Positions 386 to 9,648 of a stretch of DNA of 9,649 nucleotides are shown piece by piece. Made by a program: the position numbers and the translations under genes. Every line of letters begins with the position of its first letter. The stretch's first letter is position 1. The notes below the pieces were generated by a model. That model was not told the origin of the DNA. It worked only from the letters and a program-made list of their open reading frames with translations, and made no database searches. Origin of the DNA: Pseudonocardiaceae bacterium (lineage in GTDB: Bacteria; Actinomycetota; Actinomycetes; Mycobacteriales; Pseudonocardiaceae); NCBI GenBank assembly GCA_025937115.1, contig JAICSB010000096.1, positions 1 through 9,649 of the forward strand. The letters are read 5' to 3'.

Positions 386-1390
386 TTACGGTGAATCCCG
401 CACTATCGACGACATCCCCGACGTCTGGGAGCGGGTGACGCTCGGGTCGCCCCGATAGCGAAGCACCGAGGCACCTGCGGCCTGTACGGCTAGCGTGTCG
501 GTCACCGTCGCGGTGGCATGGCTGGCCCCGGACAGCGTCGCGTCAAGATAGCGGACAGTGAGATCTGCTAGCGGCAGCTGGCTGGCTCCCGCCGCACTGA
601 AACTCAGCTGCGCAACATTACCGGACAGCGCCAGGGTACCGGCGCCGGAGACCGTCGCCTGCACCCGACCGACCATGACAGGGCCGGTGATTGCGCTGGT
701 CCCAGCGATGTTCAGGTACAGCGCGGGGCTAGTCAGTGTTGGGTCCAGCATCACCCGACTGGCCCCCGCGGTGGCCAGTCGATCGAGCTGACCCACCGTG
801 ACATCAGCGGACAACGTCGCATTTCGGACGCTCATACCCGGCTTGATCCCCAGACGTAGCTGGCCGCCGGTGACGGTGGCCGCGACGCGATCAGTCAGGT
901 TGTCATCCATCGTGACCGCGGCCTGTGCAGAGCGACCCGTCCTGAGGTGCACCACGAAATTGGCCTCCGCCACCACCGAGGTGACCCCGGACAGATCTAT
1001 CGTCCGGGTGGTCAGCCGACCAGAACCAGCCACCGCACCGGGATCGGAGAAACTGCCTCCCCCAGTACCATCTACACCATCACGGCCATCAGCACCGTTG
1101 CCGCCGTAACCATTGCCGCCCCATCCGCCATAGCCATTGCCGCCGTTGCCCCCGGTACCGCCGCCATTAGCGTCACCGCCATTTCCACCGTAGCCATTTC
1201 CGCCGCTACTGCTACTGGTACCGGGACTGCCGGTGCCCCCCATGCCGGCGGTTCCGCCGGCCGACGTGCCGAGACAGCCGGCCAGCGAGCCCACCGCGGC
1301 GAGCACCGCCACCGCCCTACCAAACCGTCCGGTCCACCCCGCGCCACGAAGCGCGGCACGTTGCGTGCCACCGTTCGGGGACACCAACAC
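386..1390 (-). CDS. Gly-rich lipoprotein with DUF2807-type beta-repeat domain
   Basis: A 334-residue predicted lipoprotein. Basic residues (11-25) and a hydrophobic stretch precede a lipobox LAGC with the lipid-bearing cysteine at 39, so the mature protein should sit on the outer face of the membrane. Residues about 45-113 are very Gly-rich with three GGNGYGG repeats (63-69, 83-89, 91-97). Residues about 124-318 match the DUF2807 (GIN-type) pattern: a start like LSGVTSVVAEANFVVHLRTG, repeated strands each with a SGA/AGAS turn, and an ending RYRGDP. DUF2807 proteins form beta-repeat folds of mostly unknown function. The GTG start at 1390 directly follows the protease stop codon. Its ribosome binding site GGGAGG lies inside the protease gene, so the two are probably translationally coupled. 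A GTG two codons further in is an alternative start. I see no clear terminator after the stop. Confidence 0.85.
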   Translation of the reverse strand: MLVSPNGGTQRAALRGAGWTGRFGRAVAVLAAVGSLAGCLGTSAGGTAGMGGTGSPGTSSSSGGNGYGGNGGDANGGGTGGNGGNGYGGWGGNGYGGNGADGRDGVDGTGGGSFSDPGAVAGSGRLTTRTIDLSGVTSVVAEANFVVHLRTGRSAQAAVTMDDNLTDRVAATVTGGQLRLGIKPGMSVRNATLSADVTVGQLDRLATAGASRVMLDPTLTSPALYLNIAGTSAITGPVMVGRVQATVSGAGTLALSGNVAQLSFSAAGASQLPLADLTVRYLDATLSGASHATATVTDTLAVQAAGASVLRYRGDPSVTRSQTSGMSSIVRDSP

Positions 1391-2734
1391 TTAGATCCTC
1401 CCTGCGCTGACCGCCGCTGGCGCCAACCGCCGTCGCAGCCACCGAACCGGCCGCCGAGCCATCATTCCCAACATCAGCGAAGAGCCCACCCACGGTAGCA
1501 ATAGCAAAACGATCTGCACTACACCCAACGCAGCCTCGGCTCCGTGACTGGCCGATGCTGCTTGCCCCACTGCGTGGATCAAAAAGACAAGCCGGTGCCA
1601 CACCACTGGCAGCACCCGAGGAATCACGATCAAGAAACCGATCAACCAGTACCCTAGGTAGGGCACCACGATGAGCACCCACAGGGTGATCATTCGACGG
1701 ACCCACGGCTTGAGTTCCTGCACCCGAGGATGCTTCGCGCGCCCGGGAATGATGCTCGCCAACACCGGTCCCATCCGGCTGAACAGATCGGGAACCCCGA
1801 TCAGGTCACTAAGGATGTAGTAGCCATCCAGTCGGATCATCGGCAGGAACTGCGTCGCGGTCTCGACATGTAGCGCCACGATGGCTACCAGTAGCCACGG
1901 TGCCCCGGTATACAGGTAGGCGACACTCATCCCGGCGATGAACACCGCGTTGAAGTACACGCCACCCAGGTCGGTGCGTAACCGACCGACCCGTCCCAGC
2001 CGGTAGGAGTCGGTGACCGTGCTGTACAGCGCCGGCCACACCAGATACAGACCGAAACCCATCACCCCGGGTTTAGCGCCGCCATAGCGGCAGGCAGTGA
2101 CATGACCGCACTCGTGAAACGCCGCTGACGCCAAGATCAAACCCAGCACCAGCAAGGTCAACGCCGGCTGGTAGATCAACGCGATCGCGCTGGGCACGAT
2201 CCGCCCCAGACCCCCCTGGGCGATGATCAGCACGTCCAAGCCGATGAAGCTGGCCAACGTGGCGAGGATCACCGGCGGCCAGAACATCGGACCGAAGACC
2301 CCGGCGATGCGCCACACCGTCCGCTCCGGGACGACCCCGACCCGGAACTTCAAGGCCAACAACGGATCCGACTTCACCGCCATCGTCGGTGCCGCACCAT
2401 CCGGTCCGGTCTGCGGATCACCAGCTCCCGGATCAGCCGCCACGATCCCCGCCGGGCGCAACCGGTTGTCCACCAGAAACGCCACCTGCTCGGCCTGGAC
2501 CACCTTGCCGAACTCGGCGCTGAGCACACCAGCAACCTGTGCCTGGTTGCGTTGGCCGTCCATGCTGGCCGCAAGCAGATACAGCAACCGGGGCAGCTGG
2601 ATGACCTGCCCATCGGACCGACGCACGATGTAGCGAGGCTCTTGAAACCCCGATCCCTGATACTCCCCGATCAGCTCGACCCCGTCAGCCAAGCGCGGCA
2701 CAGTGCCCACAGCCGACCCAAAGTCAACCTCCAC
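1391..2734 (-). CDS. Membrane M50 zinc metalloprotease with N-terminal PqqD-like (RRE) domain
   Basis: A 447-residue membrane protein of the M50 site-2-protease type often annotated as a putative peptide zinc metalloprotease (YydH-like). The zinc site is HECGH (207-211) at the end of a membrane helix, with a distal LDG (302-304) in RLDGYYILSD supplying the third ligand. The segment PALYSTVTDSYRLGRVGRLRTDLGG (about 234-258) is typical of this subfamily. About six or seven membrane segments are visible (roughly 148-173, 182-205, 258-276, 279-297, 345-372, 402-424). Residues about 15-100 resemble the PqqD winged helix, including QLPRLLYLLAASMDG, and could bind a peptide leader. The start is GTG; its best ribosome binding site (GGAGG) lies a rather long 20 bases upstream. 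The gene is followed without a gap by the lipoprotein gene. Action on the four peptides is inferred from the domain and the neighbourhood. Confidence 0.88.
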   Translation of the reverse strand: MEVDFGSAVGTVPRLADGVELIGEYQGSGFQEPRYIVRRSDGQVIQLPRLLYLLAASMDGQRNQAQVAGVLSAEFGKVVQAEQVAFLVDNRLRPAGIVAADPGAGDPQTGPDGAAPTMAVKSDPLLALKFRVGVVPERTVWRIAGVFGPMFWPPVILATLASFIGLDVLIIAQGGLGRIVPSAIALIYQPALTLLVLGLILASAAFHECGHVTACRYGGAKPGVMGFGLYLVWPALYSTVTDSYRLGRVGRLRTDLGGVYFNAVFIAGMSVAYLYTGAPWLLVAIVALHVETATQFLPMIRLDGYYILSDLIGVPDLFSRMGPVLASIIPGRAKHPRVQELKPWVRRMITLWVLIVVPYLGYWLIGFLIVIPRVLPVVWHRLVFLIHAVGQAASASHGAEAALGVVQIVLLLLPWVGSSLMLGMMARRPVRWLRRRLAPAAVSAGRI

Positions 2735-2781
2735 ACGCTCAGTATCGATGACGCCCTCCCCGACTCAAAGTCCCAGTCCGC

Positions 2782-2829
2782 CGAATCGAAACTTCGTCGA
2801 ATCGAAACTTCGTCGAATCGAAAACTGCT
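2782..2829. repeat. Three tandem copies of a 16-base repeat upstream of the protease gene
   Basis: The unit CGAATCGAAACTTCGT occurs at 2782-2797 and 2798-2813 exactly, then as CGAATCGAAAACTGCT at 2814-2829. Each exact unit contains the small inverted repeat CGAA-AC-TTCG. The array lies 48-95 bases before the protease start codon, where operator or activator sites would be expected. No other gene occupies 2735-2975, and I could not assign a -35/-10 pair there. Confidence 0.7.
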
Positions 2830-2975
2830 CGAGTCACAGACCGCCGCCCCGAAACACGCCATGAGTAGCATTTACTTAATGCCCACCCAGCCTACCGACG
2901 CTTAACCTCGCAGGCACGGCTCGTCACTACCTAGTTTCGCCGGTGCCACTGCGTAATAACGTGCTCACCGGGTGT

Positions 2976-3012
2976 GCGGGAGGGGCGGCCGTAGGCTGGC
3001 CACCCCCCACGC
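2976..3012 (-). terminator. Hairpin after peptide gene 1
   Basis: GCGGGAGGGGCGGCC (2976-2990) faces GGCCACCCCCCACGC (2998-3012) across a 7-base loop. Twelve of 15 positions are Watson-Crick pairs, with at least one more as a G-U pair in the minus-strand RNA. It starts 43 bases after the stop codon and separates the peptide cassettes from the protease operon. There is no U tract. Confidence 0.65.
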
Positions 3013-3054
3013 CCCCGCATGCAACATCGGCGCTTACCGATCGCACCAGGCGAA

Positions 3055-3318
3055 TCAGCGGTAAACAGCTCCGCCGGTACCGCCGGCTGCGCCGCCGCCC
3101 TCGCCGCCGACACCGCTACCGGCGAGGTTGGTCTGGTCGCCAAGGATGTTGGCGTTGATGAGGTTGGCGCCGAGGCCGCCCCTGCCTACCCCACCGGGAG
3201 CACCCAGGCCGCCATTGCCACCGCGTCCAGCGGCGCTGAACAGCGACAATACGGTGCGGGACGGCAGCAGCTCCACGCGCTGCGCGTCGAGTTCGGTCGA
3301 GCTCAGTGCATCAGACAT
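3055..3318 (-). CDS. Gly-rich conserved-leader peptide 1
   Basis: An 87-residue peptide of unknown function, the shortest of the four. Its leader is the most changed (MSDALSSTELDAQ, then RVELLPSRTVLSLFS, residues 1-28) but keeps the VELLP-RTV-S-F pattern. The Gly-rich spacer (29-47) includes GVGRGG, as in peptides 2 and 3. The core GLGANLINANILGDQTN (48-64) keeps the GDQTN ending. The tail is Gly-rich and ends GGAVYR. There is no cysteine. The ATG at 3318 lies 4 bases after AGGAGG. The gene has its own promoter module and hairpin and is the cassette nearest the protease operon. A role as a precursor processed by the downstream protease is inferred from context only. Confidence 0.8.
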   Translation of the reverse strand: MSDALSSTELDAQRVELLPSRTVLSLFSAAGRGGNGGLGAPGGVGRGGLGANLINANILGDQTNLAGSGVGGEGGGAAGGTGGAVYR

Positions 3319-3560
3319 AGATCCTCCTAGGAAAGGTGGGTCCCGTGACCTGCAGACGGCCTCAGGACTACGAACACCGCATCGGGTGGCAGTGCCGATC
3401 CGGCGCTACATACCTTGCCCACGGTAAGATCGATGTGGCAATCAGTAGCGGTACTTAACTCTTACGAGTGTAGTACTTAGACTATTCGAGCTATGACCAT
3501 ACCTAGTTCCTGCGAGGCTCTACGGAAGGTGTAGATCCGAATACTTACGACGTAGACCTC
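3319..3560 (-). promoter_or_regulatory. Promoter and 5' leader of Gly-rich peptide gene 1
   Basis: The most divergent of the four modules. Plus-strand elements are GGCAATCAGTAG (3437-3448), CATACC (3409-3414) and the inverted repeat ATCGG-N9-CCGAT (3381-3399). Their starts are exactly 28 bases apart, as for peptide 4. A far-upstream sequence CCGAATACTTACGACGTAG (about 3537-3555) may be the CGAATACGTAG element with a 6-base insertion; this is uncertain. The pre-ribosome-binding-site stem is the short GGTC-CCGT-GACC (3339-3350). The ribosome binding site is ACCTTTCCTAGGAGG (AGGAGG complement at 3323-3328), 4 bases from the ATG. Confidence 0.6.
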
Positions 3561-3595
3561 ACAAGCACCGTTTCCGCAGGTAGTAGCTCTATGAC

Positions 3596-3638
3596 TAGCT
3601 GGGAGGGGTGGGAGCGATTGACCACCCCTCCCAGGCTA
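3596..3638 (-). terminator. Hairpin after peptide gene 2
   Basis: CTGGGAGGGGTGG (3599-3611) pairs perfectly with CCACCCCTCCCAG (3622-3634) across a 10-base loop. The stem extends to TAG/CTA (3596-3598 with 3636-3638) past a one-base bulge. It begins about 45 bases after the stop codon. There is no U tract on the minus strand. Confidence 0.78.
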
Positions 3639-3683
3639 CGGCGCCGCCACGAATAGGTGACCAGCTAGCAGCGCCGGCTCGAC

Positions 3684-3959
3684 TCAGCCGCTTACGGCTC
3701 CACCAGTACCGCCGTTGCCGCTGCCGCCAGCGCCGCCGAAGCCGCCGCCGGCGTCGTTCGTCTGGTCGCCGAACAAGTTGATGTTGAGGAGGTTGAGACC
3801 GAGGCCGCCGCGGCCAACGCCGCCGGTGCCACCCTCGCCGCCGTTGCCCCCACGGCCGCCGCCGTCATGGCCAGCGGTGAACATCGACATCACGGTACGG
3901 GCGGGCAGCAGCTCCACGTGCTGACCGTCGACCTCAGCAAAGCTCAATGCGTCAGACAT
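3684..3959 (-). CDS. Gly-rich conserved-leader peptide 2
   Basis: A 91-residue peptide of unknown function. The leader (1-28) is MSDALSFAEVDGQ, then HVELLPARTVMSMFT. A Gly-rich spacer (29-51) has GGNGGEGGTGG type repeats. The core GLGLNLLNINLFGDQTN (52-68) matches peptides 1 and 3, and the tail is Gly-rich, ending GGAVSG. There is no cysteine. The ATG at 3959 is set by AGGAGG 6 bases upstream. The gene sits in its own cassette with promoter module and hairpin. Near-identity to peptide 3 in leader and core points to recent duplication or selection on those parts, while the Gly stretches vary in length. Confidence 0.82.
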   Translation of the reverse strand: MSDALSFAEVDGQHVELLPARTVMSMFTAGHDGGGRGGNGGEGGTGGVGRGGLGLNLLNINLFGDQTNDAGGGFGGAGGSGNGGTGGAVSG

Positions 3960-4140
3960 CTAAATCCTCCTAGGAAAGGTGATCCCGGCGAGCCGGGTAT
4001 AAGTACCTGGTCGGTGGCAGTACCGATTTGGTAACTCATACCCTGCCGCGCAGTAACCTTCGTGGCAATCAGTAGTCACACGTAACTCAATTAAGGTCGC
4101 TACGTAGGACTGGCAAACTTCGCTAATACGTAGTCGGCCG
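3960..4140 (-). promoter_or_regulatory. Promoter and 5' leader of Gly-rich peptide gene 2
   Basis: Same module as upstream of peptides 3 and 4. Plus-strand elements are TAATACGTAGTC (4124-4135, a weaker match to the far-upstream element), GGCAATCAGTAG (4064-4075) followed by CACGTAACT, CATACC (4037-4042) and GTCGG-N8-CCGAT (4010-4027). The starts of the last three are 27 bases apart. The stem CCCGGC-GA-GCCGGG (3984-3997) precedes the ribosome binding site ACCTTTCCTAGGAGG (AGGAGG complement at 3966-3971), 6 bases from the ATG. Confidence 0.65.
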
Positions 4141-4371
4141 CACAGACTACGGAACATCGACAACTGGGAGTACCTACATGAACGGGCGGCCGCCCCTACG
4201 CCACCACCTATCTCGCAGAACAGAAGACCAAATCGGCTCAGCTATGGTGGGCGCTCAGTACGCCGTCGGCTCTGCAGCTCGCGTCCGGCGAAGCATTGGC
4301 GATTCACGGCGACCTACCCTGCTGGATGCCGACGATGGGATATGTCGTCGCTGATCTTGGCGTCACGCCAG
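4141..4371. other. Cassette-interrupting remnant without a convincing gene
   Basis: This stretch makes the spacing between peptides 3 and 2 about 130 bases longer than between the other cassettes. At 4184-4195 lies a perfect 12-base palindrome GGGCGGCCGCCC, similar to the stem tips of the cassette terminators and placed where a terminator of an upstream cassette would be expected. On the plus strand, 4182-4439 is open without a stop but has no good start codon. Its third positions looked more GC-rich than its first and second in a hand count, so it could be a truncated gene remnant. A 58-codon plus-strand frame from the ATG at 4178 to 4354 has no ribosome binding site. I recognise no protein family in either frame. 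Confidence 0.35.
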
Positions 4372-4406
4372 GGGGAGGGGTGGCCGTGATCTGGCCACCC
4401 CTCCCC
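4372..4406 (-). terminator. Hairpin after peptide gene 3
   Basis: A perfect 14-base-pair stem: GGGGAGGGGTGGCC (4372-4385) pairs with GGCCACCCCTCCCC (4393-4406) across a 7-base loop, 48 bases after the stop codon. There is no U tract. Sequence and position match the hairpins after the other peptide genes. Confidence 0.78.
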
Positions 4407-4454
4407 ATAACGCGCACCGTGCGATCAGCTGATCGCTAGTGGCACCGGCTCAAG

Positions 4455-4724
4455 TCACCCGCTGATGCTTCCACCTTTGCCGCCCTCGGCCGAACCGCCC
4501 GCGCCACCGACGCCGTCACCAGCGCTGTTGGTCTGGTCACCGAAGAGGTTGAGGTTCAAGAGGTTGATACCGAGTCCGCCCCGGCCGACGCCGCCAGTGC
4601 CGCCGGTCCCGCCGTTGCCACCCCGGCCGGCGCCACCAGCACTGAACATCGACATCACGGTGCGGGCCGGCAGCAGCTCCACGCGCTGCCCGTCGATCTC
4701 CGCAAAGCTCAATGCATCAGACAT
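4455..4724 (-). CDS. Gly-rich conserved-leader peptide 3
   Basis: An 89-residue peptide, about 31% glycine, of unknown function. The leader (1-28) reads MSDALSFAEIDGQ, then RVELLPARTVMSMFS. A spacer of GGNGGTGG type repeats follows (29-49). The core GLGINLLNLNLFGDQTN (50-66) is shared almost exactly with peptides 1 and 2. The tail (67-89) is Gly-rich and ends GGSISG. There is no cysteine. The start is the ATG at 4724, 5 bases after AGGAGG, not the TTG at 4727. It has its own promoter module and downstream hairpin. The Gly repeats resemble mycobacterial PE_PGRS proteins in composition only; there is no PE domain. The conserved leader and nearby RRE-like protease suggest a processed precursor, which is inference. 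Confidence 0.82.
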   Translation of the reverse strand: MSDALSFAEIDGQRVELLPARTVMSMFSAGGAGRGGNGGTGGTGGVGRGGLGINLLNLNLFGDQTNSAGDGVGGAGGSAEGGKGGSISG

Positions 4725-4920
4725 CAAATCCTCCTAGGAAAGGTGGTCCCAGTGATCCGGGACGATAATCGCCTCATCGGCGGCATTACCGATTCGGCAT
4801 CACATACTTTGCCTGCAGTAGAGTCGCAGGGCAATCAGTAGTAACACGTAACTCGCCCCAGTGCACTACTTATGCAACGGACCCAGGCAGTGCAATTCGC
4901 TTTTTCGAATACGTAGGCAG
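4725..4920 (-). promoter_or_regulatory. Promoter and 5' leader of Gly-rich peptide gene 3
   Basis: Same module as for peptide 4. Plus-strand elements are CTTTTTCGAATACGTAG (4900-4916), GGCAATCAGTAG (4830-4841) with CACGTAACT (4845-4853), CATACT (4803-4808) and the inverted repeat ATCGG-N8-CCGAT (4776-4793). The starts of the last three are exactly 27 bases apart. The stem GTCCC-N8-GGGAC (4746-4763) comes just before the ribosome binding site (AGGAGG complement at 4730-4735), 5 bases from the ATG. Sigma factor boxes cannot be assigned with confidence. Confidence 0.65.
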
Positions 4921-4978
4921 CAACGTTTTGCGCCGTACATTTCACCAGTGCCTGTACGTACTGCCGACACAGCAGACT

Positions 4979-5008
4979 GGGTGGGGCGGCCAGGCGGCCA
5001 CCCCACCC
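4979..5008 (-). terminator. Hairpin after peptide gene 4
   Basis: GGGTGGGGCGGCC (4979-4991) faces GGCCACCCCACCC (4996-5008) across a 4-base loop. Twelve of 13 positions are Watson-Crick pairs and the remaining one is a G-U pair in the minus-strand RNA. It lies 52 bases after the stop codon. There is no U tract, which is common for actinobacterial terminators. Closely related hairpins follow the other three peptide genes. Confidence 0.7.
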
Positions 5009-5060
5009 TGAACTCCCACGCCGAGCGATGACGCTGATCTGTTGGAGCACAGTTGTCAGC

Positions 5061-5360
5061 TCAGTGCCCGGACTCGCCAGCACCACCGGTAGCGGCACCA
5101 CCGTCAGCAGCGCCGCTGACGCCGCCTTCGCCGCCGGTGACGGTGTTGATCACGTCGCCCTCGGTGTAGAAGTAGTTGTCAAACAGTGCCGCCTTGCCGC
5201 TGCCCGCGCCGCCGGTGCCACTGGTGCCGCCCGCGCCGCCGTTGCCGGCGTCGCCGCCGCGGGAACCGTTGCCGGTGCTGAACATTGACAAGACGGTGCG
5301 GGCCGGCAGCAGCTCCACGTGCTGCCCCTCGATCTCCGCAAAGCTCAGTGCATCAGACAT
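5061..5360 (-). CDS. Gly-rich conserved-leader peptide 4 (divergent core)
   Basis: A 99-residue peptide of unknown function. Residues 1-29 carry the leader common to all four peptides (MSDALSFAEI, then GQHVELLPARTVLSMFS). A Gly-rich spacer follows (about 30-56), then a core that differs from the other three, KAALFDNYFYTEGDVINTV (56-74), then a Gly/Ala tail ending GESGH. It has no cysteine, no tryptophan and no signal peptide or clear membrane span. The start is the ATG at 5360, 5 bases after AGGAGG; the in-frame TTG at 5363 would be too close to that site. It is the first cassette after adnB and has its own promoter module and terminator-like hairpin. The leader identity to its neighbours, with a different core, resembles a precursor peptide whose leader is recognised by a processing enzyme. 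That reading is inference; I recognise no named family. Confidence 0.8.
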   Translation of the reverse strand: MSDALSFAEIEGQHVELLPARTVLSMFSTGNGSRGGDAGNGGAGGTSGTGGAGSGKAALFDNYFYTEGDVINTVTGGEGGVSGAADGGAATGGAGESGH

Positions 5361-5545
5361 CAAGTCCTCCTAGAAAAGGTAAGTCCCGGTGGCCCGGGCA
5401 CAGGAAACCACCTCATCGGCGACAATTACCGATTCAGTACCACATACCCTGCCGAGAAGTAACGTCGTGCGGCAATCGGTAGTCGCACGTAAATCCTTAG
5501 GTTGACTACCTAGCAGCGGAGTCCTTTTTCGAATACGTAGTCAGT
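5361..5545 (-). promoter_or_regulatory. Promoter and 5' leader of Gly-rich peptide gene 4
   Basis: One of four related upstream modules. In minus-strand order it holds CTTTTTCGAATACGTAG (written on the plus strand, 5524-5540, identical to the copy upstream of peptide 3), GGCAATCGGTAG with CACGTAA (5471-5492), CATACC (5443-5448) and the inverted repeat ATCGG-N9-CCGAT (5415-5433). The last three elements start exactly 28 bases apart. A small stem CCCGG-TGGC-CCGGG (5385-5398) lies just before the ribosome binding site ACCTTTTCTAGGAGG (AGGAGG complement at 5366-5371), 5 bases from the ATG. I cannot assign standard -35 and -10 boxes. The rest of the gap to adnB (5546-5626) shows no gene and no clear terminator. 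Confidence 0.65.
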
Positions 5546-5626
5546 GTCAACCATTTACCGAGATTGCGGTCATCGATTACTAACGACGACGCATCGCCAC
5601 ACCACGACGCCGGGGCCCGCTCTCGG

Positions 5627-8600
5627 TCAGCCGATCGGGATCGTGCGCAGCAGATCGCGCAATCCGTCGGCATCGAGCAGGTCCGCGGGTCGCAACGTTC
5701 GGTTGGCGCGGACGTAGTGAAATGCCGCGCGAACCCGCTCCAGTGGTGCCCCGGACAGCGCCGACCAGGCCAGCCGGTAGGCAGCGAGCTGCACGCTCAC
5801 CGCGCGCAGCGTCGCCTCATCGGGCACCATCCCGGTCTTCCAGTCGACCACTGTCCAGCCGCCATCGGCATCGGCGAACACCGCATCCATCCGACCACGC
5901 ACGCCCACCCCGTCCAACACGGTCTCGAAAGGCACCTCGACGTCATGCGGGCAACGTGGCGCCCATTCGCTGGCAAGGAAGGCGGCCTGGAGCGATTCGA
6001 GTTCGGCGTTCGGGGCGGCGCCCTCATCGGCAGCGCCGGGCAACTCGTCGTGATCGATCAGCCGAGTGCAACCGAACCGGCGTTCCAGCCACGCGTGAAA
6101 GGCGGTACCGCGGCGAGCCATCGGGTTCGGTGCGAACGGCAGCGGCCTGCGCAGTCGAGCGGCCAGCGCCAATGGGTCCGCGGCGAGCTCCACAAGCTGG
6201 CTCACCGACAGGTGTGCGGGCAGTACGACGCGTTGCGTTGCGCGGTGGGCAGCCCGCTCCGCGAGCAACACGTCGATCTCGCGCTGCCAACCCGCTGCGC
6301 TGCCGACTGGTGAGTGCCGATCGGAGTTGGCGACCGCTAGTGCGTCGTACACCAGCTGGGCGCCCTCAGCAACGGCGTCGCGCCGCGGGCCCAGCGGGTC
6401 AATCGGGATTGGCGCGCACCGCGGTTCGGTGTCCAGCGGGTTGGCCTCGCCCTCGGCGGGGGCTGCGGCCCATTGATCGATCACGCACTGTTCGACGTCC
6501 CGAATCTCCAACAGGAACTGCGATGGCAACCGGGGTGCGCTGCCGGCCTCGCCCCAATGGTGGCCACTGACCAGCAAGGTCTGCTCTGCACGGGTCAGCG
6601 CTACATACATCAGCCGGCGTTCCTCGGTCAGCCGGCGGGTGTCGAAGGCCGCCTCGTGGTCCGCGAGGGTCCTGGCGAGCTCCTTCTGATCAGCACCAGT
6701 GGGCAGTGCCACGTCGGGGAGGTCGACCCGATCACCCCTCAGCGTCACCGGCAGCTCGGTGACCGTCCGCAGCCACGACGAACTCTTCTTGGCTGCCGGG
6801 AACACCCCATCCACCAGGTGCGGGACGGCTACCAGCTGCCATTCCAGGCCTTTGGCCGCGTGCACGGTGAGGATCTGCACGCGGTCGTGGGCGACCTCGA
6901 TCTCGCCCGACTTGAGACCATCTTCGGCGTCCTCGGCGGTGGCCAGGTAGTCCAGCAGCGCGGGCAAGCCGGCCATCGGGCCGGCCGCGGAGAAGTCCGC
7001 TACCACGCCGGCAAAGGTGTCCAGGTGGACCCGGCCAGCGAGGCCAGGCCTGGCCAGCGACTCGATATCAAGAAGCAGGGTCCGTTCGGCGTCGGCGACC
7101 AGATCGGTCAACGGTTGGGTAACGCGGCGGCGCAGTGCCCGCAGCTCGCCAGCCAGGGTGCGCAGCCGCTGGTAGCCCAGCTCGGAGTACCGGGCCGGAT
7201 CGCCGGGCGAATCCAGCGCGTCGACCAGTCCCGCCTGGTCGACGCGCTCCCCAGGCAGGCCCTCCGGTAAGGCAGCCAACACTTCCTCCGGGCTGCCCAG
7301 ACCTTCAGCGCCGTGCCTCGATGGGGTCCGGTGATCGGTCGCCAACTCCCGCGCACGACACCACAGCGCGACCAGATCCGCCGCGCCGAGCCGCCACCGC
7401 GCACCGGTCAGCAGCCGCGCCGCGGCTGTGCCCGCTAGCGGATCGACGAGCAACCGCAGCACACTCACCAGGTCGCAAACCTCCGGCGCAGCCAGCAACC
7501 CGCCGAGACCCACCACCTCGACAGGGATATCGCGAGTACGCAACGCGGCGGCCAGCACCGCCATGTCAGCGCGGCGGCGCACCAACACCGCGGCGGTCAG
7601 GGGGGTGCCCTGGTCCACCACCGCCGAGTGCCAGCGGCCGGCGATGGCGTCAGCTACCCAGTTCACCTCGGCACGGACGTCAGGCAGCAGCGCGCAGCGG
7701 ACCTCGCCCGGTTGGGCACCATCGCGGCAGCGCAACTCGCCGACGCGAACCTGCCCGCTGCGAAGCTCGCCAGAGACTGCGTTAGCCACCGCGAGCACCT
7801 CGGGCGGGTTGCGGAAGCTGGTGAACAGTCCGCGGGTGAGGGCGGGGGTCCCGTCGTCGCGGGGGAAATCGGTGGTGAACCGCGGCAGGTTGGCCGCTGA
7901 GGCGCCGCGCCAGCCGTAGATCGACTGGCAAGGGTCACCGACCGCAGTGACTGGGATCGCGCGCCCGGGCGTTGCCACAGTGCCAAACAATGACCGCAGC
8001 AGCACCCGTTGGGCATGCCCGGTGTCCTGATATTCGTCGAGCAGCACTGCGCCGAAGCGGGCGCGCTCGGCCTCGCCGACCTCCGGATGGTCGCGCGCCA
8101 GCTTGGCCGCGATGCCCATCTGATCGCCGAAGTCGAGTACAGCCTCGCGCCGCTTGAGCTCGGTGTAGCGCTGCACCAGCGGCAGTATCGCCAGCCGGGA
8201 CCGCTGGCTGCGCACCACCGGCGTGAGGTCACCACGTAGCGGGCCCTTCTGGCGTGCGGTCGGCGAAGCCGTGACCAGCGCCGTGATCATCGCCTCGGTG
8301 GACTGCCGCAACTGCTCCGGCTCGCACAAGTGCTCGGCGAGCTGCCCCGCCAGCCCAAGCACCCAACCGGTGACCGTGTGCGGCACCTTTCCGTCCAGGT
8401 CAAGGTCCGGTTCCCAGCCAGCGGTGACCCGATGCGCGAGCTGCCACGCGCCGGTCTCAGAGAGCAGCCGGGCCCCGGGGTCGGTGGGGAGTCGAAGCGC
8501 ATGCTCAGCAACCAGCTGGCCGGCATATGCGTGGTAGGTCAGCACGGTGGCCTCGCCGGAGAGCACCGCAGCCCTGCGCTGGCCGGTGGGGTCGAGGCGA

Positions 8601-8905
8601 TCCAGCACTGCGGAACCGGCGAGCCGGCGCAACCGGGCCCGGATCCGCTCGGCAAGCTGCTGAGCCGCCTTGCGGGTGAACGTCAGGCCGAGCACGCCGT
8701 CGGGAGTGACGTACCCGTTGGCGACCAGCCACACCACTCGGGCGGCCATCGTCTCGGTCTTACCCGACCCGGCACCGGCGACTACGAGCGTGGGGCCCCC
8801 CGGGTCGGCGGCGATGACGGTGGCCTGCTCCGCCGTGGGGGGCGCGATACCGAGTTCCGCAGCAAGCTCAGCGGGCTCGATGCAGCTGGCGTGCACCGTC
8901 GTCAT
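5627..8905 (-). CDS. adnB: AdnB, UvrD-family helicase with C-terminal nuclease
   Basis: A 1092-residue ATP-dependent 3'-5' helicase and nuclease, the partner of AdnA in actinobacterial break resection. Superfamily 1A motifs appear in order: Walker A GAGSGKT (44-50), motif Ia LTFTRKAA (about 74-81), Walker B LLDEYQD (288-294), motif III AVGDPCQSIYGWRGA (321-335), motif IV FTSFRNP (361-367), motif V TVHAAKGLEWQ (680-690) and motif VI EERRLMYVALTRAEQ (761-775). The C-terminal PD-(D/E)XK nuclease shows GTAFHAWLE (933-941), GRMDAVF (Asp1007), VVDWKTG (Asp1021, Lys1023) and QLAAYR (1039-1044). There is no C-terminal cysteine cluster, as expected for AdnB and unlike AdnA. An upstream in-frame start at 8959 exists, but the ATG at 8905 is preferred because it overlaps the adnA stop as ATGA. 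Length is close to mycobacterial AdnB (about 1100). The long open frames antisense to it are compositional shadows. Confidence 0.95.
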   Translation of the reverse strand: MTTVHASCIEPAELAAELGIAPPTAEQATVIAADPGGPTLVVAGAGSGKTETMAARVVWLVANGYVTPDGVLGLTFTRKAAQQLAERIRARLRRLAGSAVLDRLDPTGQRRAAVLSGEATVLTYHAYAGQLVAEHALRLPTDPGARLLSETGAWQLAHRVTAGWEPDLDLDGKVPHTVTGWVLGLAGQLAEHLCEPEQLRQSTEAMITALVTASPTARQKGPLRGDLTPVVRSQRSRLAILPLVQRYTELKRREAVLDFGDQMGIAAKLARDHPEVGEAERARFGAVLLDEYQDTGHAQRVLLRSLFGTVATPGRAIPVTAVGDPCQSIYGWRGASAANLPRFTTDFPRDDGTPALTRGLFTSFRNPPEVLAVANAVSGELRSGQVRVGELRCRDGAQPGEVRCALLPDVRAEVNWVADAIAGRWHSAVVDQGTPLTAAVLVRRRADMAVLAAALRTRDIPVEVVGLGGLLAAPEVCDLVSVLRLLVDPLAGTAAARLLTGARWRLGAADLVALWCRARELATDHRTPSRHGAEGLGSPEEVLAALPEGLPGERVDQAGLVDALDSPGDPARYSELGYQRLRTLAGELRALRRRVTQPLTDLVADAERTLLLDIESLARPGLAGRVHLDTFAGVVADFSAAGPMAGLPALLDYLATAEDAEDGLKSGEIEVAHDRVQILTVHAAKGLEWQLVAVPHLVDGVFPAAKKSSSWLRTVTELPVTLRGDRVDLPDVALPTGADQKELARTLADHEAAFDTRRLTEERRLMYVALTRAEQTLLVSGHHWGEAGSAPRLPSQFLLEIRDVEQCVIDQWAAAPAEGEANPLDTEPRCAPIPIDPLGPRRDAVAEGAQLVYDALAVANSDRHSPVGSAAGWQREIDVLLAERAAHRATQRVVLPAHLSVSQLVELAADPLALAARLRRPLPFAPNPMARRGTAFHAWLERRFGCTRLIDHDELPGAADEGAAPNAELESLQAAFLASEWAPRCPHDVEVPFETVLDGVGVRGRMDAVFADADGGWTVVDWKTGMVPDEATLRAVSVQLAAYRLAWSALSGAPLERVRAAFHYVRANRTLRPADLLDADGLRDLLRTIPIG

Positions 8906-9648
8906 TGCGTGACCTGCCGACCGGCATCCTGCAGCGGGCAGGCGATCTTCGAGGGGCACCGCGCGCAGTCGCCGCTGTCGATGGCGACGAACTCCGGCCC
9001 CACGGTGCGCCGAGCCGCCTCGCGCACGACCTCCTGCCAGCTCGTCAACGCTACCGGGTCCAACGGCCGTTGATCGCGCTGCACAGGCGCGGCGTTTCGT
9101 GCGGAGACCGAAACGATGCAGGCCCCACCAGGTTCGGTCGGCAGACCATGTTCGCCGAAGGCACCATTAGCCGCAGCTAGCTGGTAAATGGCCAGCTGCG
9201 GGTGGCCCTGCGCGGCTTCTTTGCTGACCGGGACCTTGCTGGTCTTCACGTCGACGATCACGGGACGGCCGTGGCGGTCCCGCTCCAACCGGTCCACCCT
9301 TCCCTGAAGCTGTACAGCGGTGTCGTCGGGAGCGCCGTGAGCAGGGGGCAGCTGCACCTCGAACGCCAGCTCGCAACCGACTTCGGTCAGCTCAGCACGG
9401 CTGGCTCTCCACCAGCTGCGAAATGCTGCAACCATCTGGAGAACCCGCTGCTGCTCTGCCCGGGAGTACCACGGAGCACCGGCATCGACGGCGGTCCAGG
9501 CTTGGTCTAGCGCTAGTTGCAACTGTTCGTCGCTGGCACCGGCTGCCACCGCGTGGACCAGGCTGTGCACCAGCGACCCGGTGACCGCGGGCAGCGCCCG
9601 GACGTCCTCGCCGCCGTGCCGGGTGAGCAACCAGCGCAAAGGGCAGCT
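8902..9648 (-). CDS. adnA: AdnA, C-terminal nuclease part (5' end beyond the window)
   Basis: Partial gene; only the last 248 or so codons are present and the reading frame is open to the right edge. It encodes the RecB-like PD-(D/E)XK nuclease end of AdnA, which pairs with AdnB to unwind and cut DNA ends during double-strand-break processing in the cytoplasm. Visible nuclease motifs are a GSLVHSLVH helix, GRVDRLERD, the catalytic strand VIVDVKTSK, and the helix QLAIYQLA. A cysteine in SCPLRWLL at the window edge (codon at 9643-9645) and a C-x2-C-x5-C cluster near the C-terminus (CARCPSKIAC) together give the four cysteines expected of the iron-sulfur nuclease module in AddB/AdnA proteins. 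The TGA stop overlaps the adnB start (ATGA), which indicates co-translation. The TTG at 9639 is an internal codon, not a start. Family assignment is firm; the AdnA name rests on the Fe-S cluster and the partner downstream. Confidence 0.9.
   Translation of the reverse strand, partial: SCPLRWLLTRHGGEDVRALPAVTGSLVHSLVHAVAAGASDEQLQLALDQAWTAVDAGAPWYSRAEQQRVLQMVAAFRSWWRASRAELTEVGCELAFEVQLPPAHGAPDDTAVQLQGRVDRLERDRHGRPVIVDVKTSKVPVSKEAAQGHPQLAIYQLAAANGAFGEHGLPTEPGGACIVSVSARNAAPVQRDQRPLDPVALTSWQEVVREAARRTVGPEFVAIDSGDCARCPSKIACPLQDAGRQVTQ

Follow-up and report, generated by a model that had tools for sequence, protein, structure and literature searches.

The 9,649-nucleotide stretch analysed here, Pseudonocardiaceae contig JAICSB010000096.1 from position 1 and hereafter the window, carries four small precursor peptide genes, A1-A4. 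Downstream of them, on the same minus strand, lies a gene for a membrane protease. The protease is predicted to fuse a recognition element (RRE) of the kind found in ribosomally synthesized and post-translationally modified peptide (RiPP) pathways to a site-2-protease-like domain. Soil actinobacteria with such a protease would use it to trim a shared leader from small peptides that otherwise differ widely. Our favored reading, at a probability of roughly 0.68, is that the precursors processed by this protease are scattered over the genome and undergo no visible chemical tailoring. It would best be described as a leader-cleavage, perhaps cleavage-plus-export, system releasing unmodified, probably extracellular peptides, whose cleavage, export, and function we infer.

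Leader peptides and their protease

Protease loci were collected from a scan of genome contigs (79 loci, from the best 80 of 119 relatives) and from two Streptomyces plasmids, giving 81 in total. A leader profile trained on these same loci matches 73 of the 81 at E<0.01, and 135 of 136 leader matches lie on the protease strand, 128 of them within 4 kb upstream of the protease; counts at this level are thus partly circular. Weaker leader matches are present in four of the other eight loci (L043, L055, L061, and L068), and no leader match was found in L036, L037, L040, and L062, the last of which has just 171 bases of sequence ahead of the match. Because of this circularity, whole genomes were searched with E cut-offs of 1e-40 (protease) and 1e-4 (leader; 1e-3 for the Geodermatophilus family), covering 376 genomes in three actinobacterial groups named after the records behind their centre loci. 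In the family of Pseudonocardia, 24/150 genomes have the protease and 16/150 the leader, all 16 within the 24. The family of Geodermatophilus gives 19/76 and 10/76, with all 10 within the 19, and in the genus of Streptomyces eurocidicus the two are found in 17/150 genomes each, identical ones. Fisher p-values for the Pseudonocardia and Geodermatophilus families ignore relatedness. Pooled, the leader occurs in 43/60 genomes with the protease and in 0/316 without it.

All 17 protease genomes missed by the leader profile hold a precursor-like gene, recognized by eye and regular expression. Four have weaker profile matches, and thirteen have a variant A-L-P-[DN]-K-E leader (loci L096, L097, L099-L101, L104-L107, and L109-L112). 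Most of these variant precursors occupy long frames in which the core unit is repeated, and several such frames run to about 240-400 codons and hold the unit twice. In L100 and L110 the visible part comprises the leader and the beginning of the core. The pair of leader precursor and protease is also carried by the two Streptomyces plasmids, and a plasmid search with a precursor as query gave no match. On the whole-genome counts, the pairing of leader and protease is not chance, and both co-occur across families and phyla. This bears out a preliminary description of this DNA, which had expected the leader to co-occur with an RRE-bearing M50 protease.

The four window precursors are A1 (5061..5360, 99 aa), A2 (4455..4724, 89 aa), A3 (3684..3959, 91 aa), and A4 (3055..3318, 87 aa), all on the minus strand. 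A1 consists of the leader MSDALSFAEIEGQHVELLPARTVLS and a Gly-rich core; a TTG start at 5363 lies one codon ahead of its ATG at 5360, and the ATG is the start that matches the other three precursors. The leaders are nearly invariant, reading M-S-D-A-L-S...E...Q.V-E-L-L-P-x-R-T-V, with M-S-D-A-L-S, E, Q, V-E-L-L-P, and R-T-V as invariant columns and E-L-L-P-x-R common to all four. In six ortholog comparisons, involving three of A1-A4 and related genomes, whole-gene dN/dS is 0.12-0.62 and leader dN is below core dN every time (6/6), although for A2 versus L005 the leader has the higher dN/dS ratio. These substitution patterns indicate that A1-A4 are real genes and not chance open reading frames (ORFs), and with the aligned leader columns they confirm the four small, nearly invariant leader genes first described. 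A Pfam search of the precursor peptides returned no match at all.

Each precursor gene is followed by a strong terminator-like hairpin of -31 to -42 kcal/mol in 50 nt, also on the minus strand: at 4959..5008 after A1 (-38.7 kcal/mol), 4364..4413 after A2 (-42.0 kcal/mol), 3599..3648 after A3 (-30.7 kcal/mol), and 2968..3017 after A4 (-37.4 kcal/mol). The blocks upstream, on the same strand and with approximate limits 5361..5560 (A1), 4725..4925 (A2), 3960..4160 (A3), and 3319..3520 (A4), resemble one another. A hairpin behind each gene and a similar block in front of it suggest four separate transcription units.

The protease gene (1391..2734, minus strand) was assigned by profile score and predicted model. 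The model contains an RRE/PqqD-like part, at about residues 10-104 (2423..2707), with three strands followed by three helices, and a site-2-protease-like part. The metal motifs are HECGH, at residues 207-211 (2102..2116), and RLDGY. The protein thus has the predicted N-terminal RRE/PqqD fold and the HExxH and DG motifs in a membrane domain that make up the DapP-like architecture of RRE-fused site-2 proteases. The Pfam M50 match to the window protease is below threshold, and the Pfam PqqD domain was not found in any of 11 protease members at E up to 10, so the evidence for the RRE/PqqD part is structural. Hence the membrane HECGH/LDG protease with a PqqD-like N-terminus proposed earlier was recovered, its motifs by reading and its fold by structure prediction. 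A protease 99% identical to that of the window is at locus L003 of a Pseudonocardiales metagenome-assembled genome (MAG), G006, which served as a near-identical stand-in for the window's genome. Elsewhere in G006, a fragment with an in-frame stop that matches the RRE part of the protease adjoins a precursor gene (L085 / G006:C13:8326-8556) and is perhaps a decayed second protease locus. A short direct repeat (GAATCGAAACTTCGTC) lies at about 2780-2822 of the window, just upstream of the protease start.

Across the wider family, a variable core follows a leader whose end reads E-[LV]-L-P-x-R-x-x-[ML]-[SG]. Over 148 leader matches the E is kept in 143/148, L in 148/148, P in 146/148, and R in 146/148. 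The preliminary description of Gly-rich peptides holds for the window cores, which are 35-45% Gly, but not as a general rule, since 50/142 distinct cores reach at least 30% Gly; 94/142 have no Cys. Cores of the type N-x-x-x-A-x-N-x-x-S...A-x-A-x-Q occur in Chloroflexi, Thermoleophilia, and other MAGs, and Streptomyces has related types plus further ones. With a profile of this core type, all 7,999 candidates scored passed E 0.001, the best 120 of them being named 'hypothetical protein', 'predicted peroxiredoxin', or nothing. A test for Gly period 3 (polyglycine II) over whole cores was not significant for A2-A4 (p 0.45-0.57) and gave p 0.04 for A1 and 0.06 for a segment of the neighbouring lipoprotein described below. 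GGxGG is over-represented in A2, A3, and A4, but neither in A1 (p 0.13) nor in the segment of the lipoprotein (p 0.14). The idea of a shared fold or co-assembly therefore rests on likeness.

Tailoring enzymes and known peptide systems

From 22 loci, 77 neighbour proteins were chosen, one per recurrent family and mostly omitting precursors and proteases, and 69 of these, from 18 loci, were scanned. Among the families listed (25 of 97 for Pfam and 25 of 788 for NCBIfam), none matched more than two of the 69. Single matches include a class-V aminotransferase, a short-chain dehydrogenase, and a luciferase-like monooxygenase, and there are two methyltransferases. Further representatives of recurrent clusters are ordinary proteins: an aconitase, an EPSP synthase-like protein, Uma2, GntR, a hydrolase, FG-GAP, and helix-turn-helix proteins. 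In 8-11 loci, almost all of them from Streptomyces, ABC permeases of the binding-protein type and a solute-binding protein recur at a distance of 4-10 kb; these look like an importer. Within the 4-5 kb viewed around the protease, no tailoring enzyme or ABC exporter recurs, with trans-acting copies possible. Profile searches of the window genes uphold the earlier claim that neither is visible in the window.

The layout of the protease is already known from daptides. According to the daptide report (PMC10036551), the peptidase DapP/MpaP has an RRE fused N-terminally to a site-2-type protease, the layout found here, and daptide loci also have several short precursors whose leaders share a conserved E-L motif close to the core. 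In contrast, the window protease scores 98.9 bits against NF041824 (daptide_HExxH), for which the cut-off is 300. In 150 Streptomyces genomes this profile picks out ten places at 434-536 bits, the true daptide proteases, and all others score at most 150. Further daptide_HExxH-like proteases are found in Streptomyces genomes at about 120-150 bits (G178, G184, and G187, for example); these are below the daptide cut-off and also outside the set found with the profile of the window's protease family. As a positive control, three canonical Streptomyces daptide loci have 2-4 precursors each, with ELEAMEAP or ELEVMEAP and a C-terminal Thr, beside genes sized as an ABC ATPase, permease, aminotransferase, dehydrogenase, and methyltransferase (judged by size and sequence start). 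A strict regular expression for an ELExMEAP leader plus C-terminal Thr found 0 ORFs in the 81 loci versus 8 in all three daptide loci, a looser one found 1 versus 8, and 4/142 distinct cores end in Thr. The daptide set of aminotransferase, alcohol dehydrogenase, methyltransferase, DapB, and ABC transporter was not found among the window genes or the annotated L003 flanks, and none of its enzyme families recurs among the 69 neighbours (25 commonest families listed). A daptide identity was rejected on the 98.9-bit score, the missing ELExMEAP and C-terminal Thr, and the lack of a recurring daptide enzyme set among the families listed for the 69 neighbours.

A membrane M50 protease beside small peptides is also seen with the epipeptide proteases YydH/EpeP/LiaK. 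However, the window protease scores 39.8 bits against NF058609 (cut-off 225), and no radical SAM gene was found in the window or among the 25 commonest families of the 69 neighbours. The GGxGG-rich cores of A2-A4, but not A1, recall the PE_PGRS proteins of mycobacteria. No PE domain was recognized, because the peptides give no Pfam match, and the short leader and the different kind of protease presumably set the present system further apart. No published description of the leader-protease system was found in the open-access full text searched, a search that most subscription papers fall outside. Relative to the literature found, three things appear new: the families of precursors, the regulon that they form, and the lack of any recurring tailoring gene.

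Precursor regulon, proposed mechanism, and alternatives

Precursor genes are not confined to the protease locus. The leader profile matches 21 genes in G006, on 14 sequence stretches, with four at the window's locus and 17 elsewhere, and six genomes of the window's clade have 8-26 each. Upstream of the G006 precursors are [CT]TA[ACG]GT[AG] boxes, often at spacings of 26-28 and 20-22 bases; the upstream blocks of A1-A4 in the window were assigned by likeness, that of A1 with boxes of the CTACGTA/CTAGGTA/TTACGTG type. Inside 330 bases upstream, 17/21 precursors have at least one box and 15/21 at least two, a density of 6.06 versus 0.50 per kb for a pattern that was defined with these sequences already in view. 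Near the protease, 16/81 loci encode a large ATPase regulator of the LuxR type (Pfam GerE). In L003 it begins about 1.4 kb after the protease, which would be just beyond position 1 of the window. Beyond these genes, at other loci, the boxes are present at 36/44 precursors of the window's clade and 7/20 of Pseudonocardia/Geodermatophilaceae, both groups with the LuxR neighbour, and at 1/24 and 0/47 in two groups where that neighbour was not found. Because regulator and boxes are distributed together, we infer that the LuxR-type protein next door probably controls the precursor regulon of the window's clade through the shared boxes.

As the sequences show, every precursor gene has an upstream region and a terminator-like hairpin to itself and encodes a peptide with a conserved leader and a variable core. 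We propose that the RRE domain binds the E-L-L-P-x-R segment, as fold and co-occurrence suggest, and that the HExxH/DG membrane domain cuts just past it, near the [ML]-[SG] junction. The comparative data support the part of the preliminary description that paired the RRE-M50 protease with the ELLP leader, while the cut that it placed near the leader/Gly junction is a predicted one. The core may then exit the cell through or with the protease, a proposal made because no ABC exporter recurs beside it. EpeP is thought to perform both cleavage and export, according to PMC10885120, and an EpeP-like activity would explain the missing exporter. Once outside, secreted or surface-bound cores might work alongside a secreted protein encoded with them, in the window a DUF2807 lipoprotein. 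The comparison of core with secreted partner (family 1) gave a suggestive motif with weak statistics, using regular expressions written after seeing the sequences.

Alternatively, the peptides may form a RiPP class with real modifications, with tailoring enzymes elsewhere in the genome or past 4-5 kb and the protease as the last step. The daptide RRE-fused peptidase does act after tailoring according to PMC10036551, the scattered precursors mean that parts of a leader-protease system need not cluster, and single tailoring-type neighbours are present near protease loci. However, no RiPP enzyme family recurs in the 69 neighbours, none appeared among the profile-searched representatives of recurrent gene clusters, and the cores, mostly free of Cys, differ widely with no common modifiable residue seen. 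We find this explanation unlikely, though not far-fetched.

Conserved leaders, variable cores, and paralogues are also typical of bacteriocins, raising the prospect of antimicrobial peptides freed by the protease; EpeP itself makes the antimicrobial epipeptide EpeX, per PMC10885120. Yet no recurrent immunity gene or exporter was recognized among the neighbours scanned, 8-26 precursor genes per genome are a poor fit, and cores with 35-45% Gly and long double-repeat versions are unlike small antimicrobials, making such a role improbable. Our guess is that the peptides belong to the cell surface or matrix, which suits their numbers and composition better than a toxin role does. Site-2 proteases often act in signalling, and regulated intramembrane proteolysis could make the freed leader or core a signal and not a product. 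The LuxR-type regulator near 16 loci would suit such a role, but its family was not found beside the other 65/81 (some with short flanks), and the precursors form a large set of paralogues whose cores are long. We regard a signalling role as quite improbable.

The unmodified leader-cleavage system may extend to something broader, though we hold this tentatively and would not bet on it: a widespread modification-free RiPP-type branch in which the RRE-site-2 protease trims and exports a genome-wide regulon of surface-building or coating peptides, whose cores change freely behind a fixed leader. Should the leader-cleavage reading hold, RiPP-style leader recognition would serve plain proteolytic maturation of secreted peptides, beyond chemical tailoring, and peptide export by an intramembrane protease would become a testable idea. 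Given the 7,999 candidates passing the core profile, the E-x-L-P-x-R leader with RRE-M50 also offers a searchable handle on thousands of unnamed proteins.

Neighbouring genes

The DUF2807 lipoprotein (386..1390, minus strand; Pfam E 5.2e-29) has a Gly-rich linker and a lipobox-like LAGC, and its gene abuts that of the protease with zero gap. Its proposed place in the system fits the window but not the family at large, as DUF2807 is found at 16/81 protease loci, all of one clade, and is better regarded as a clade-specific accessory. A different secreted protein, with CxxC, is encoded near the protease in 21/81 loci, immediately after it in 18. DUF4397 and sortase genes adjoin the protease in L021 (12958-14420, Pseudonocardia) and L024 (12618-14077, Geodermatophilus), assigned by Pfam on the L024 pair and by the same gene families in L021.

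In L003, two adjacent Peptidase_M16 genes (16999-19649) come after the LuxR-type gene and a gene for an NAD-binding protein and are probably chromosomal neighbours, but PMC10885120 also mentions M16 proteases in connection with lanthipeptide leaders. On the other side of the precursors, the window encodes a UvrD-type helicase with a PD-(D/E)XK nuclease domain (5627-8959) and the end of a second nuclease gene (8902-9648). This pair, which we take to be AdnAB-like, is retained in 9/81 loci.

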